NCBI GenBank assembly: GCA_002167845.2
Contig: NHBO02000053.1
Location: 19,582 to 61,607, forward strand
Direction of reading: 5' to 3'
Source of the DNA: Phycisphaera sp. TMED9
Lineage (GTDB): Bacteria > Planctomycetota > Phycisphaerae > Phycisphaerales > SM1A02
DNA length: 42,026 bases
Part shown: positions 23,714 through 29,983 of the stretch, piece by piece
Position numbering within the stretch: position 1 is the stretch's first letter
Layout of the letters: each line of letters begins with the position of its first letter
Notes under the pieces: generated by a model
The model's input: the letters and a program-made list of their open reading frames with translations, nothing else
What the model was told of the DNA's origin: nothing
Database searches by the model: none
Translations under genes and position numbers: made by a program

Positions 23714-23980
23714 GGTAGTTCCGAGGCCGCCTGGGGAGGGGTGTTCGAGCAGTCCGGGCCGCGAAATCGGGTCTGGTGGGCGACCTCCCGATAATCGACG
23801 CTGAAGCCGCCGGATGCCGCGAATGGCCGAGCGAATCGACCTTCTCGGGGATTCTCATGCCGTCTCGTCTCAAGCCCGATCGGACCGCCTGCCGATGATC
23901 AAATGGTCGAGGTGCGGTTGATCTGGATCGGCAGGAGGCCGAATTCAGATTCTCAGCCCCTCGCCGGAGAAGTCCAAGCC

Positions 23981-25036
23981 ATGTCCGATGCCGAGATGCT
24001 CGATCAGAAGGAAGTCGACGCGTTGCTCGACGCAGTCGAATCCGGCAATTTGAAGGATGATCAGCCCCCGGCGCGGATCTTCTCTCGATTCCGACGAGAT
24101 CACGAGAAGGTCGAGATCCGGGTCTATGACTTCAAGCGACCGGAGCGCATCGGCAAGGACCAGATGCGGACGCTTCGGACGCTGCACGAGGCCTTCGCTC
24201 GAGGATTCGGTGCTCAGATGTCCGGGTTCCTGCGGTCGATCGTCGAAGTCCGGGTCGCCAGTGCCGAGCAGATGACCTACGCCGAGTTCATCGGCAGTCT
24301 TCCCAATCCAACCTGTTTCACGCTGCTGGACTGCCCGCCGCTCGGTGGTCAGATCTGCATGGAGATCAGTCCGCTCGTGGTCTATCCGCTGGTGGAGCGA
24401 CTCCTGGGCGGGACCAATCAGAACCTCATGATTCCTCAGCGGCCGTTGACGGGAATCGAAACCCGGCTGATGCGACGCGTGCTGGATCTGGGGATGAATG
24501 CGCTCACCGAGGCCTGGTCCGGCGTCCGTGAGATCGACTTCAGCGTCGCGGCGATGGAATCCAATCCCCAGCTCGTGGAGATCGTTCCGCCCAACGAAGT
24601 GGTCGTGATGATCGGTTTCGAGATTCGGCTGGGAAGTCGGGTGGGGGATGGGGTCGGCACGATGAGCCTCTGTATTCCCTACAACGTCATCGAGCCGGTC
24701 ATGGACGATCTGAGCACCGAGAACTGGTTCGTGGCCGGGGATGGTCGAGCTCGAGAGGCCGAAGAGGCCATCGTCTCCAAACTCCACGACTCGACCGTTC
24801 AGATCGAAGCGACCTTGGCGGAAACTTCGATCACGCTCTCGGATCTCGGCCGGCTTGAAGTCGGCGATCTGCTCACCACCGATCGGCGGGCGGATCAGCC
24901 CGTCCAGGTCAGCGTGGCGGGGAAACCGAAGTTCGAGGCGACTCTGGGGCAGCACCGCGGAATGCGGGCCTTGCGGATCGTCGATCCCGCGAAAGTCGGA
25001 AATTCCGAGATTCCGACCCCCGAAACCGGGTCATAA
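23981..25036 (+). CDS. fliM: Flagellar motor switch protein FliM (isolated gene)
   Basis: C-ring protein that binds phospho-CheY and sets the direction of flagellar rotation. It has 351 residues from the ATG at 23981, with CCGGAGA about ten bases upstream; the frame is open from 23903. The N-terminus has the CheY-binding segment LDQKEVDALLDAV, close to the family consensus SQxEIDALL. The middle domain has MTYAEFIGSLPNPTCF and the dimer-forming core ending LGGTNQ. The C-terminal SpoA/FliN-like domain has LEVGDLLTTDRRADQPVQVSVAGKPKF. No other flagellar or chemotaxis gene is in the window, so the rest of the motor must be encoded elsewhere. Confidence 0.94.
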   Translation: MSDAEMLDQKEVDALLDAVESGNLKDDQPPARIFSRFRRDHEKVEIRVYDFKRPERIGKDQMRTLRTLHEAFARGFGAQMSGFLRSIVEVRVASAEQMTYAEFIGSLPNPTCFTLLDCPPLGGQICMEISPLVVYPLVERLLGGTNQNLMIPQRPLTGIETRLMRRVLDLGMNALTEAWSGVREIDFSVAAMESNPQLVEIVPPNEVVVMIGFEIRLGSRVGDGVGTMSLCIPYNVIEPVMDDLSTENWFVAGDGRAREAEEAIVSKLHDSTVQIEATLAETSITLSDLGRLEVGDLLTTDRRADQPVQVSVAGKPKFEATLGQHRGMRALRIVDPAKVGNSEIPTPETGS

Positions 25037-25601
25037 CCCCCGGATTGTCCTGAAACCGCGTCCATGATGACCGGGGGCCGGGTATCCTCCCCGATCGGCC
25101 TCGCGTTATCGAGGTCGTGATCCCGTCCGTCGTCCGACGCCGGGTAAGGATGATTCACCGATGCTCGTAAACGCTACTGAAATGAGCGCATCGGACCGAC
25201 CCTGCCTCGGGATTCGAGGGTGAGCCAGTCTTTCGGCCATCCCGTTCCCCGTTCCGCAGTCGTCGGCGCACGATCGAACCGGAGTCACCGGTCCATCGTG
25301 GAGGTTCCGATTCTTGACGCTTCGGCGTCGCTGATCGGTCCTGAGTCATCCTTTGCTTCGCTGGAGATCGTCCCAATGAGGTGACGGTCTTTCACAGGAC
25401 GGCATCCGATCGCTCGCGATCGGCTCGACGGGCCACGCTCCCCTTGATTGGGACGCGTGGCTCGCTTCGTGTGACTGGGGCACGGCCGACGTTCGCGGCG
25501 CCGGTGGGTCAGCCACGGGGGCTGGCGATGATGCAACCCGATAGACAGACCATTTCGACAACTCATTCGACAACTCATTCGACAACTCAAAGGAGCGGCG
25601 G
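25037..25601 (+). promoter_or_regulatory. 565-base non-coding leader rich in hairpins upstream of nusA
   Basis: No convincing gene in either strand. Perfect or near-perfect stems seen by eye are: CCTCG/CGAGG at 25099-25114 with an outer GATC/GATC; CCGATGC/GCATCGG at 25158-25194; CCTCG/CGAGG at 25205-25219; CACGAT/ATCGTG enclosing ACCGG/CCGGT at 25269-25300; GACGC-TTCG-GCGTC at 25316-25329; CCGATCG-CTCG-CGATCGG at 25406-25423; GCCACGC/GCGTGGC enclosing TCCC/GGGA at 25432-25461. The series suggests a structured nusA leader or a separate small RNA. It does not match a riboswitch, RNase P RNA, tmRNA or SRP RNA that I could recognise. A possible fliM terminator stem CCCCCGG/CCGGGGG (25037-25077) has a 27-base loop and is weak. 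Confidence 0.5.
25553..25588 (+). repeat. Three tandem 12-bp repeats immediately before the nusA ribosome site
   Basis: Three head-to-tail copies of (T/A)TTCGACAACTC at 25553-25564, 25565-25576 and 25577-25588, differing only at the first base of copy 1. They end right at the AAAGGAG ribosome site (25588-25594) and are AT-richer than the surroundings. Such unstructured repeats could act as a ribosome standby or protein-binding site; this is inference. Confidence 0.8.
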
Positions 25602-27062
25602 GTGAAGCCCGTCCGAAGCACGAGACCAATGAATCCAGAAACCCTTCGAATCCTCGACTCCATCGCCCGTGATCGCAACATCGATCGAGAGCTCCTCATC
25701 GAGGATCTCGAGCAGGCCATGGTCAGCGCCGCACGGAAGCACTTCAACTCCCTGGACACCGAGGAGTTCGGATGCCAGATGGACCGACTCAGTGGTGCGA
25801 TCCGGCTCTGGCGCAACATCGAAGGTGAAGGCATCGAGGAAATCCCCCTCTCCGCGATGGGCCGGATTCCTGCCCAGACCGCGAAGCAGGTGATGATCCA
25901 ACGGTTCCGCGAGGACGAGCGGAACAGCCTGCTCGATGAGTTCGCCAAGCGACAGGGCGAGGTCGTGACGGGTGCCGCGCAACGTTACGAGGGTGGTGCG
26001 CTCGTCGTTCAAATCGACCGGGCGGAAGGGTTCATGCCTCGGAGCGAGCAGATTCCAGGAGAGCAGTTCCACCCCGGCGACCGTGTTCGCTGCCTGATCC
26101 TCGACGTCCGAGACGCGGGCAACCAGGTCAAGATCGTGTTGAGCCGTTCGCATCCGGACTTCATCCGCCGACTCTTCGAGCAGGAGGTTCCGGAAGTCAG
26201 TGAACGCGTCATCGAGATCAAGGCGATGGCTCGGGAGGCGGGATTCCGCACCAAGCTCGCGGTGAGTTCGATCGATTCGAAGGTCGATGCGGTCGGTGCC
26301 TGCGTGGGCGTCCGTGGCAGTCGGATTCGAAACATCGTCGACGAGCTGAATGGCGAGAAGATCGACATCGTTCGTTGGAACGAATCCAGTCAGGTTCTCA
26401 TCGCCAACGCGTTGAAGCCCGCGGAAGTCGAAGAAGTCAGCCTCTGCTTCGAGCTGGGGCGGGCCACGATCATCGTTCGGGAGGATCAATTGTCTCTCGC
26501 CATCGGCCGGCGAGGCCAGAACGTCCGCCTCGCGGCGCGGCTGACCGGTTGGGACATCGACATCCTCACGCCGGAGGAGTTCGCGAAGGGTCTCGAGAAC
26601 CTCGAAGCCACCGTGCGTGGCATCGAAGGCATCACGGAAGTGATGCTCGACCGGATGGGGGCGTTGGGAATGATCAGCGTCTTCGACATCGAAGAAGTCG
26701 GCGAAGGCGTGCTGGTGGAAGAACTCGAACTCACCGACGAACTGGCGGCGACCATCGTGGAACGGGCTGCGGCCCGGGCCCACGAGATCTCCGAAGAACA
26801 GGCGAAGGCCAAGGAAGAGGCGGATGCCAAGGCTGCGGAAGAGCAGTCGGCCGATGCCATCCTCTCCGCGACCGATGCGGATGCGGAATCCTCGGCGGCG
26901 TCGATTCTCGGCGGAGGCCCGGCGGTTCCGGAGGCTCCGGCGTCGACGGAGGAAGAAGCCCAGGTCGAGCAGACCGATGCGGCGGCGGAAGCGTCCGCCG
27001 ATGCGCTGCTCGGCGGCGGGCCGGCGTCCGAGGATGCCGGTGCGACGGATCAGAAGGATTGA
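25602..27062 (+). CDS. nusA: Transcription termination/antitermination factor NusA
   Basis: RNA-polymerase-binding factor that controls pausing, termination and antitermination. It has 486 residues from a GTG at 25602, which has AAAGGAG seven bases upstream. The family-like start MNPETLRILDSIA is an in-frame ATG at 25629 without a good ribosome site, so the protein may carry nine extra residues. The N-terminal polymerase-binding domain is followed by an S1 domain (GEVVTGAAQRYEGGALVVQI onward), two KH domains (VGACVGVRGSRIRNIVDELNGEK, then AIGRRGQNVRLAARLTGW), and one helix-hairpin-helix region. A 70-residue Ala/Glu/Asp-rich tail has two LGGGPA copies. RimP, often upstream, is absent. It heads the operon with infB and rbfA. 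Confidence 0.96.
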   Translation: MKPVRSTRPMNPETLRILDSIARDRNIDRELLIEDLEQAMVSAARKHFNSLDTEEFGCQMDRLSGAIRLWRNIEGEGIEEIPLSAMGRIPAQTAKQVMIQRFREDERNSLLDEFAKRQGEVVTGAAQRYEGGALVVQIDRAEGFMPRSEQIPGEQFHPGDRVRCLILDVRDAGNQVKIVLSRSHPDFIRRLFEQEVPEVSERVIEIKAMAREAGFRTKLAVSSIDSKVDAVGACVGVRGSRIRNIVDELNGEKIDIVRWNESSQVLIANALKPAEVEEVSLCFELGRATIIVREDQLSLAIGRRGQNVRLAARLTGWDIDILTPEEFAKGLENLEATVRGIEGITEVMLDRMGALGMISVFDIEEVGEGVLVEELELTDELAATIVERAAARAHEISEEQAKAKEEADAKAAEEQSADAILSATDADAESSAASILGGGPAVPEAPASTEEEAQVEQTDAAAEASADALLGGGPASEDAGATDQKD

Positions 27063-27202: not shown

Positions 27203-29983
27203 GTGGCCAAGAAGAAGACGGTAGCCCTGAGAGTTCACACGCTTGCCAAGGAACTTGGGGTGTCCAGCAAGGACATCATCGCCAAGTGCGTGGCCGAGGA
27301 CATTCCCGACATCACCAACCACATGTCGGCGGTCTCGGTCGGTCTCTCGCACACGGTGCGCGAGTGGTTCGGCAACGCGGAAGGGGAGTCGTCCACGGCG
27401 GTTGAGACCGCGGCCAAGGTCGACGTCGTGAAGGCCCGAGCCAAGGTGCGGAAGACGACCAAGAAGGTCGTGGTCAAAGAGAAGGAAGAATCGGCGGCTC
27501 CGGTCGCCGAGGTGGCCGTGGCCGAGCCGCCCGCGGCGCCTCCGGCAGATGTCGAGCCGCCGTCTCCGCCGTCTCCGCCCTCTCCGGCGACACCGGTGGT
27601 CGAGGTGGACCCCCCGTCGAGTACGCCCGACACTCCGAGTGAACCGGAATCGCCCGCGATCGCGGCATCCGCCGGCTCGGACGTCGAGGGTGATTCAGGC
27701 AAGCCGATGATGAACGTTCCCAACCGGCCGGACAGCATCTCGCCGGTCGGGCCGAAACTTGAGCAACCGACCAAGGTGGCCCTGAGTGGTCCCAAGGTCA
27801 TCCGGGTCGAGAAGCCCGACGAACTGCCCGCGCCTCGTCCTCGAGGTCAGCAGGGTGGCGGCATGATGTCGAGCGGCGGACCTCGCCGCGGCGGCGGTGC
27901 CGGTGAGATGGACCAGCAGCAGGATGCACGTCGCGGCGGTGGTGGTGGTCATGGTGGGCCGGGAGGTCCCGGTGCCAAGGGGCGAAGCCCGCGACGCAGT
28001 GGCGGTGGTGACGGCCGATCAGGCCGCGCCGGTTCCGGCCTCGGCGAGAACAAGGCGTTCCAGCCCTGGCGTGCCCAGGACCTCGCCGAACGCGATCAGG
28101 CCTTGAAGCACTCGCAGGGATTCTTCCGCCAGCACCGACAGGATCGGATGCGAGGCCGGGGCGGTGGCGGTGGCCGACGAGGTGCGCCGGTCGCGGCGAA
28201 GCCGACGGGTCCCGTCAAGATCTCGGAACCGATCACCATCAAGGACCTCTCCGCCGCTACCGGCGTGAAGGGGGCGGAGATCGTGAAGAAGCTCTTCCTC
28301 GAGGGCATTCCCGCCACCATCAACTCGGCGATCGAGACCGAGCGGGCGATCGAGATCATGATGGAGTACGAGATCGAGCTCCAGGTCGAGCAGGCGAAGA
28401 CCGCTGCCGAAGTGATCGAAGAGCGGTTCAAGACCCGCGAGCGCGATGACGAGCGATCACGAAGTCCGATCGTGACGATTCTCGGTCACGTCGACCACGG
28501 AAAGACGTCCTTGCTCGACCGGATTCGCAAGGCGAACGTCGCCGCCGGCGAGGCCGGTGGCATCACTCAGGCCACCAGTGCGTTCCAGGTGCCGGTGACC
28601 GCCGGTGAGAAGGAACGAGTGGTCACGTTCATCGACACGCCCGGTCACGAAGCGTTCACCAACATGCGTGCTCGAGGTGCGAAGGTGACTGACGTGATCG
28701 TGCTGGTGATCGCGGCTGATGACGGGATCATGCCGCAGACCGCCGAGTCGATCAGTCATGCGAAGGCGGCCGGCGTTCCCCTGGTGGTGGCGTTGAACAA
28801 GATCGACAAGGCCGAAGCCACCGAGGAGAACATCCAGCGGATCTACGGGCAACTGGCCGAACACGAACTCAACCCCACCGAATGGGGTGGTTCGATCGAG
28901 GTCATCAAGACCAGTGCCATCGAAGGCACGGGTATTCAGGATCTGTTGGACATCCTGGACTACCAGGCTGATCTGCTCGAACTCAAGGGTGACTTCACGG
29001 GCAATGCCGAAGGAACGGTTCTTGAGGCTCAGGTCGAAGAGGGGCGAGGCCCGGTGGCACGCATGCTCGTGCAGGAAGGCATGCTCAAGAAGGGCGACTT
29101 CATCGTCACCGGCCGAGGCTTCGGACGGGTTCGAGACATCGTCGACGATCATGGCAAGCGAGTCGAGTTCGCGGGGCCGTCCACACCCGTCGCGATCAGT
29201 GGAATCGACCAGCTGCCTGATGCGGGCGATCGTTTCTTCGTCGCCGACTCGCTCAAGGAGGCCGAATCGGCCGCCGAAGAACGACGTCGTCTCGAACGAG
29301 AACGGGAGCTTGCGGCTCCGAAGATCACCCTCGACAACATCTTCGATCATCTCGAAGAAGGAAAGAAGAAGGATCTTCCGCTGGTCATCAAGGCCGATGT
29401 GCAGGGTTCCGTCGAGACGCTTCGCGCGGTTCTCGGGAAGATCGGATCCGAGGAGGTCAAGGTTTCGGTCAAGCATGCCGCCGTCGGTGGCATCAACGAG
29501 AGCGACGTCACGCTCGCCGAAGCGACCGGCGCGATCGTGGTCGGCTTCAATGTGACCACCACTTCGAAGGCTCGGCAACTCGCGGAAGCCAAGGGTGTCG
29601 ACATCCGGCTCTATGACGTCATCTACGACATCACCGATGATGTCGAGAAGGCCGCGTCCGGCCTGCTCGATCCGGAACTGAAGCTCGAGGTCCTCGGGCA
29701 TGCCGAGGTCAAGGAGGTCTTCCGGGTCTCCAAGATCGGTGCGGTGGCCGGCTGCTACGTCACCGACGGCATCGTGGAGCGGAGTGCTCAGATTCGTGTC
29801 ACTCGCGAAGGCATCGTCGTCGAGAAGGACCGCCGCCTCGATCAGTTGAAGCGGTTCAAGGACGACGCCAAGGAAGTCAAGAGCGGCATGGAATGCGGCA
29901 TGAAGATCGATGGTTACGACGACATCAAGGTTGGCGACGTCCTGGAGTGCTACAAGACGATCGCCGTGGCTCGGAGCCTTTGA
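27203..29983 (+). CDS. infB: Translation initiation factor IF-2
   Basis: GTPase that brings initiator fMet-tRNA to the 30S subunit and promotes subunit joining. It has 926 residues from a GTG at 27203 with GAGGAG about ten bases upstream. The N-terminal IF2_N helical domain ([20 protein letters not shown]) is followed by a long low-complexity linker: Lys/Glu/Pro-rich to about residue 215, then Gly/Arg-rich to about 330. A second IF2_N-like helical unit begins [20 protein letters not shown]. The G domain has GHVDHGKT at 428-435, DTPGHEAF and NKID. C-terminal domains end in [15 protein letters not shown]. The 140-base gap after nusA contains a strong hairpin. Confidence 0.97.

Follow-up and report, generated by a model that had tools for sequence, protein, structure and literature searches.

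A candidate transcription attenuator with a two-codon open reading frame in the nusA-infB leader of Phycisphaerae

Results

Gene order and RNA structure upstream of nusA

On the + strand of the window, by which we mean the whole stretch of 42,026 nucleotides that was analyzed, the order is fliM, leader, nusA, and infB. The upstream neighbour fliM (23903..25036, +; Pfam FliM and FliMN_C) lies outside the element described here, nusA (25629..27062, +; Pfam NusA_N, S1, and KH_5) opens the operon, and infB, encoding IF2 (27203..29983, +; Pfam IF-2, IF2_N, and GTP_EFTU), follows it. The nusA-infB operon is almost universal in bacteria (PMC2965389).

The initial annotation had proposed a structured RNA, seen as a chain of hairpins, upstream of nusA. 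A check of the sequence showed that all the stems it had named were present where it had placed them, and the region 25078-25530 folded with a z score of −3.91, none of 100 dinucleotide shuffles being equally stable. Over a 604-nt span including the flanks the z score was −1.77, and this weaker signal indicates that the structure is concentrated in 25078-25530.

All hairpins are given for the + strand. The 5' hairpin CCTCG/CGAGG (25099..25114) has 5/5 pairs invariant in seven genomes, and hairpin A (CCGATGC/GCATCGG; 25158..25194), which overlaps the start of the upstream open reading frame uORF1, has 7/7 pairs invariant in the genus. Further downstream, the sequence and the genus alignment show the compound hairpin B2 (25269..25300), with CACGAT...ATCGTG around ACCGG...CCGGT (6 + 5 pairs), and the hairpin GACGC-TTCG-GCGTC with its TTCG loop (25316..25329) has double changes at three of five pairs in the genus. 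Hairpin C (25363..25392), with 92.9% of its cells paired across the genus, encloses the Shine-Dalgarno sequence and start codon of the two-codon frame uORF2. Hairpin D (CCGATCG-CTCG-CGATCGG, seven pairs; 25406..25423) shows one double change in the genus and, as aligned, has partly lost its pairing in two genus members. The last hairpin, T (CGGGCCACGC/GCGTGGCTCG; 25429..25464), has the tail CTTCGTGTG, which is T-poor in this genus.

Six same-genus genomes hold the stretch upstream of nusA with 74-92% identity. The mean pairwise identity in the genus was 0.79-0.98 in the blocks between 25077 and 25156 and near 25417-25476, and high again (0.83-0.92) in the last blocks before nusA (25577-25616), as compared with 0.65 for the third positions of nusA codons and 0.31-0.64 for most of the remaining intergenic sequence on either side. 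The eight named helices were 95.5% paired across seven same-genus genomes, with double changes at 4 pairs (6 cells) versus 1.5 pairs and 1.6 cells in shuffles, a modest excess; several helices are invariant among the seven genomes and hence uninformative on covariation. Beyond the genus, the last hairpin (25429-25464) covaries clearly across the order.

In line with the annotation, which had recognised no known RNA family, the window matched no Rfam family, riboswitches and the T-box among them, at the gathering threshold and gave no meaningful match at a relaxed E-value, and a search with the window and the loci of 28 relatives gave only below-threshold chance matches at both settings. RNase P RNA was ruled out, as it sits elsewhere in the genome, and the window contained no tRNA or tmRNA. 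The proposal of a structured RNA was borne out in that the RNA is real, selected, linked to nusA, and outside the described families, but it had missed both uORFs and the terminator-type hairpin at the end, and the element is not a loose chain of hairpins. The best conserved logic of the element appears to be translational, residing in uORF1 and above all in the two-codon uORF2 with a Shine-Dalgarno sequence of its own. Likewise, the statement that no coding frame explains the region holds for long frames, but not for the two short conserved ORFs inside it.

The element as a leader linked to nusA

DNA similarity to the stretch fails beyond the genus, and the loci were therefore anchored on NusA. 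We compared the upstream DNA of about 130 such loci, drawn from six families in the order and from several in the class; the named relatives in the comparison were Phycisphaerales/Phycisphaerae within the Planctomycetota. Across the loci, nusA was constant and the upstream gene varied (FliM, an ABC-transporter ATPase, others, or divergent genes), indicating that the element goes with nusA, within a set in which the anchoring means that copies elsewhere in these genomes would be missed.

The sequence TATCCT (25083..25088, +), the putative −10 box of a leader promoter, is invariant in the genus. Of the two promoter boxes only the −10 is clear in the window; this genus has a degenerate −35 box, and a sister-genus locus (L019) has TTGACC-N18-TATCCT. 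Sigma-70-like promoter signals of the form TTGAC-N15..19-TANNNT were found in 28 of 58 leaders, versus 0.4 expected and 0 on the reverse strand, and the promoter-like signal is located at a median of 180 nt 5' of uORF2. A generic scan of the window detected neither a promoter nor a terminator at the leader. In the last 150 nt before nusA, a second promoter-like signal was seen in 2 of 159 leaders.

The element could instead be a stable small RNA transcribed separately from nusA, with a promoter and a terminator of its own, that lies before this gene by chance; its promoter-type and terminator-type signals and stable fold agree with this. We consider it improbable, since the element stays 5' of nusA in the loci read (all of them nusA-anchored) though the other neighbour changes, a promoter-like signal is absent between T and nusA, and open frames with Shine-Dalgarno sequences lie inside the element. 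The linkage to nusA, the promoter-like signal 5' of the element, and the absence of one between the element and nusA favour an mRNA leader rather than a separate transcript. The annotation's view of the nusA leader as a regulatory site thus appears right as regards the leader, and a nusA operon attenuator is a known kind of site.

An upstream frame of conserved openness

The frame uORF1 (25161..25223, +) has 20 sense codons (MLVNATEMSASDRPCLGIRG, then a stop), and AAGGA (25146..25150, +) is its putative Shine-Dalgarno sequence. Its frame, start, and stop are kept in 7/7 genus members, and the other frames are broken in the genus alignment at this site. A conserved peptide in the genus was ruled out, because non-synonymous changes dominate and the open frame alone is kept. 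There was no run of regulatory codons in uORF1, and the peptides were diverse. Among the leaders compared, a uORF of exactly 14 sense codons was present at 16 loci (1.0 expected), and one of 13-15 codons at 24 loci (3.1 expected).

In several genera, the uORF1 peptides end in His-Asp-X-stop or Arg-His-Asp-X-stop, and this end overlaps a hairpin. The loci with His-Asp-X-stop ends are L029, L032, L034, L037, L041, L043, L046, and L052, and the ends may reflect a constraint at either the RNA level or the peptide level.

A two-codon ORF conserved in the class

The second frame, uORF2 (ATG-AGG-TGA; 25376..25384, +), has an invariant start and stop in the genus, and its start-NNN-stop signature is found order- and class-wide. 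Its Shine-Dalgarno sequence GGAG (25363..25366, +), located within the 5' strand of hairpin C, is invariant in eight sequences. The middle codon is AGG in the window and GGG or CGG in sister species.

The leaders were searched with the rule Shine-Dalgarno sequence, 4-11 nt, [A/G/T]TG, one codon, and stop. The pattern was found in 58 of 96 non-redundant leaders versus 2.3 expected from shuffles, a count inflated by shared ancestry, as the loci are not independent events. The built-in controls (other ORF lengths, CTG, and non-stop triplets) were drawn from the same sequences, and the results showed that: (i) ORFs of 1, 3, 4, and 5 sense codons numbered 5, 8, 0, and 2, with approximately 2-3 expected for each; (ii) the starts ATG (41), GTG (9), and TTG (8) were enriched, while CTG (1, with 0.5 expected) was not; and (iii) when all 64 triplets were tested at the third position, there was clear enrichment only of TGA (43), TAG (10), and TAA (5). 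The unchanged rule gave 34 of 52 held-out leaders versus 2.3 expected, with the stops TGA 21, TAG 8, and TAA 6 and the starts ATG 31, GTG 5, TTG 0, and CTG 3. Outside the class, the two-codon ORF was found in 1 of 27 leaders, which is chance level. A genome-wide search by the uORF2-T pattern proved too unspecific.

The strict two-codon pattern is missing from about 40% of the leaders. The f11 family (L125, L127, and L135) has a version with three sense codons (ATG AGC GGG TGA; ATG AGG GGT TGA), and the two-codon ORF was absent in the f9 loci examined. At L088, the uORF2 module (GCGGAGCGCGCCATGACCTGAGCGCGCG...) occurs twice in tandem about 480 to 250 nt before nusA, a natural duplication that includes the hairpin.

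The choice of middle codon is free across 116 distinct leaders, with Arg, Thr, Gly, Ala, or Ile as the commonest residues. Arg (AGG, CGT, CGC, CGG, CGA) is frequent there in the genus and in deeper lineages. The deeper lineages L121, L128, L130, L211, L218, L231-L234, L241, and L248 often have CGT, CGC, CGA, or CGG at this position and use all three stops; these Arg codons hint at an amino-acid-level preference for fMet-Arg.

In 59 leaders, the sequence around uORF2 had a mean fold z of −1.56, and the Shine-Dalgarno sequence and start codon were mostly paired in the predicted folds. The segment from uORF2 to T folded better than shuffles in 59/59 loci, with a mean z of −3.66 that is inflated by the choice of T for its stem. 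It could be that start-NNN-stop is an untranslated structural or protein-binding RNA motif belonging to hairpin C, as it sits in a hairpin and its second codon and stop are paired in many family members (ACCTGA with CAGGT). Such a motif fails to account for the use of all three starts and all three stops but not of CTG or non-stop triplets, or for the presence of a Shine-Dalgarno sequence, and the ORF stays while the hairpin differs among clades. Hence, we judge this explanation to be of low probability.

The terminator-type hairpin T

Hairpin T has homologues throughout the order with the core GG(C/T)CACG..CGTG(G/A)CC, followed by an interrupted T-tract in most relatives. Its arms are often GGGCCACG..CGTGGCCC across the order, and those of the window are GGGCCACG..CGTGGCTC without a T-tract. 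Among 41 distinct stems, double changes occurred at five of eight pairs, in 26 cells versus 7.4 in shuffles. The outer positions, at which the search did not require pairing, were paired in 62/68 and 66/68 cases. Since the inner pairs were required by the collecting search, what carries information is the surplus of coordinated changes together with the outer pairing. The spacing from the uORF2 stop to hairpin T is about 45-65 nt in most loci.

Among about 60 leaders, the MFE folds showed no antiterminator, i.e. no consistent upstream partner of the 5' arm of T. In some family members uORF2 (CCGTGACC) pairs perfectly with the 5' arm of T (GGTCACGG), but this pairing was rejected as a switch, as it is absent in other clades and in the window. 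Because the T-tract is eroded and the −35 box is unclear in the genus, termination here, if any, must be strongly factor-assisted.

The leaders examined outside the class are short, and those read by eye have a GTGGG..CCCAC hairpin with a T-tract. In L140, L147, L150, L153, and L160, from other classes of Planctomycetota, it lies just 5' of nusA; these hairpins resemble the terminator of the rimP-leader, yet they had no Rfam match.

Discussion

At the sequence level, our comparisons demonstrate that the element is structured, under selection, and linked to nusA, that signals of promoter and terminator type occur throughout the order, and that start-NNN-stop is constrained. Read from the aligned leaders, there is a recurrent plan in Phycisphaerae of putative promoter, short uORF, Shine-Dalgarno sequence with two-codon ORF, and terminator-type hairpin. 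We propose, with a probability of roughly 60%, that the stretch is the 5' leader of nusA-infB and acts as a transcription attenuator that would be read by RNA polymerase and ribosomes. Most likely, the leader would be a translated variant of the nusA/rimP-leader attenuator.

The rimP-leader attenuators of rimP-nusA-infB operons were described by Naville and Gautheret in 2010 (PMC2965389). They have no visible antiterminator and form a general motif without larger conserved elements (PMC2965389). The present element shares with them the position in a nusA-infB operon leader, a terminator-type hairpin with a G-rich 5' arm and a C-rich 3' arm, the lack of a visible antiterminator, and NusA as the likely regulator. 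It differs in that there is no rimP in front of nusA in the window, where nusA directly follows the leader, and in that the leader is far longer, with two conserved uORFs as larger elements. The rimP-leader terminator reads GGGc(...)gCCC plus a T-stretch, whereas the core here is GG(C/T)CACG..CGTGNCC and the genus has an eroded U-stretch. Given the larger elements and an operon that does not begin with rimP, we did not file the element as a rimP-leader.

A plain NusA-autoregulated terminator leader of the rimP-leader type, in which the uORFs are signal-free and serve only to retain ribosomes on the leader or to shield the RNA, would suit the short hairpin leaders of other Planctomycetota classes, where only GTGGG..CCCAC and a T-tract precede nusA and the two-codon ORF is at 1/27. 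The missing antiterminator would suit it as well, as the rimP-leader also has none (PMC2965389). However, this explanation does not account for the start-one codon-stop pattern, which is kept despite sequence drift, or for the peak of uORF1 at 14 codons, and we regard it as rather unlikely.

An attenuator read by polymerase and ribosomes could work as follows. Transcription would start near 25090, the leader would fold into its row of hairpins, and ribosomes could load at uORF1 and uORF2. Hairpin T, about 45 nt past uORF2, would halt some of the polymerases, and those reading through would transcribe nusA and infB. NusA would probably favour this halt at T, as it does in the B. subtilis operon, and thereby feed back on its own level. 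A ribosome that initiates or terminates on uORF2 would alter hairpin C and the pausing of the polymerase, and uORF2 occupancy could tie the output to translation-initiation capacity, including that of IF2, the next gene product. We infer uORF translation, termination at T, a role of NusA in it, and the direction in which ribosomes would shift the outcome, as well as the switching mechanism itself, the latter because the search for an antiterminator came up empty and the genus has a degenerate T-tract and −35 box.

Parts of this scheme have counterparts elsewhere. In B. subtilis, NusA autoregulates by stimulating termination in the leader of its own operon (reviewed in PMC12288461); the operon type, the place, and the proposed logic are alike, but the uORFs are added here and the NusA dependence is putative. 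The axe-txe leader contains a two-codon minigene that acts in cis on the downstream gene (PMC8708949) and, like uORF2, has a Shine-Dalgarno sequence and start-one codon-stop inside a leader. That minigene affects translation and mRNA stability of the toxin gene in a toxin-antitoxin cassette (PMC8708949), whereas uORF2 is conserved over a bacterial class, precedes a terminator-type hairpin, and would act in cis only putatively. With the classical leader-peptide attenuators (trp, ilvB1; PMC13236596), the leader shares the arrangement of promoter, uORF, hairpins, terminator, and structural genes, including what appears to be a short ORF with a Shine-Dalgarno sequence between promoter and terminator. 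Unlike trp and ilvB1, it has no run of regulatory codons, no conserved antiterminator was found, and its second ORF has two codons.

More tentatively, and with the odds against it, uORF2 could be the sensor of a new attenuator type, in which initiation at fMet-X-stop, dipeptide formation, and termination would set the read-through into nusA-infB. If so, the operon would measure initiation and termination capacity (IF2 and release factors) and NusA together, and it would need no elongation through regulatory codons, unlike the leader-peptide logic.

So far, NusA and a terminator have been taken as sufficient to explain the control of the nusA-infB leader. A nusA operon attenuator and single leader minigenes are known; the surprising part is the class-conserved two-codon ORF. 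The class-wide occurrence of this ORF suggests that the cell lets the first steps of the ribosome help to set the amount of NusA and IF2. If true, it would be the first minigene of this kind to be conserved over an entire class of bacteria in the literature searched, and a way to couple the supply of a transcription factor and an initiation factor to the starting and ending of translation. The searched literature, consisting of openly licensed papers and therefore no proof of absence, contained no two-codon minigene in a nusA leader or class-wide. ORF callers miss ORFs of two codons.

A further observation concerns the last 80 nt before nusA, where CAA-rich, apparently unstructured repeats (ACAACTCAACAACT) lie just 5' of the gene in the window (25550-25600) and in the loci L020-L046, with eight tandem units in L025. 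Words of the ACAAC/ACATC type were present in 109 of 159 leaders, and the CAA-rich stretch is possibly a translation-enhancing UTR.
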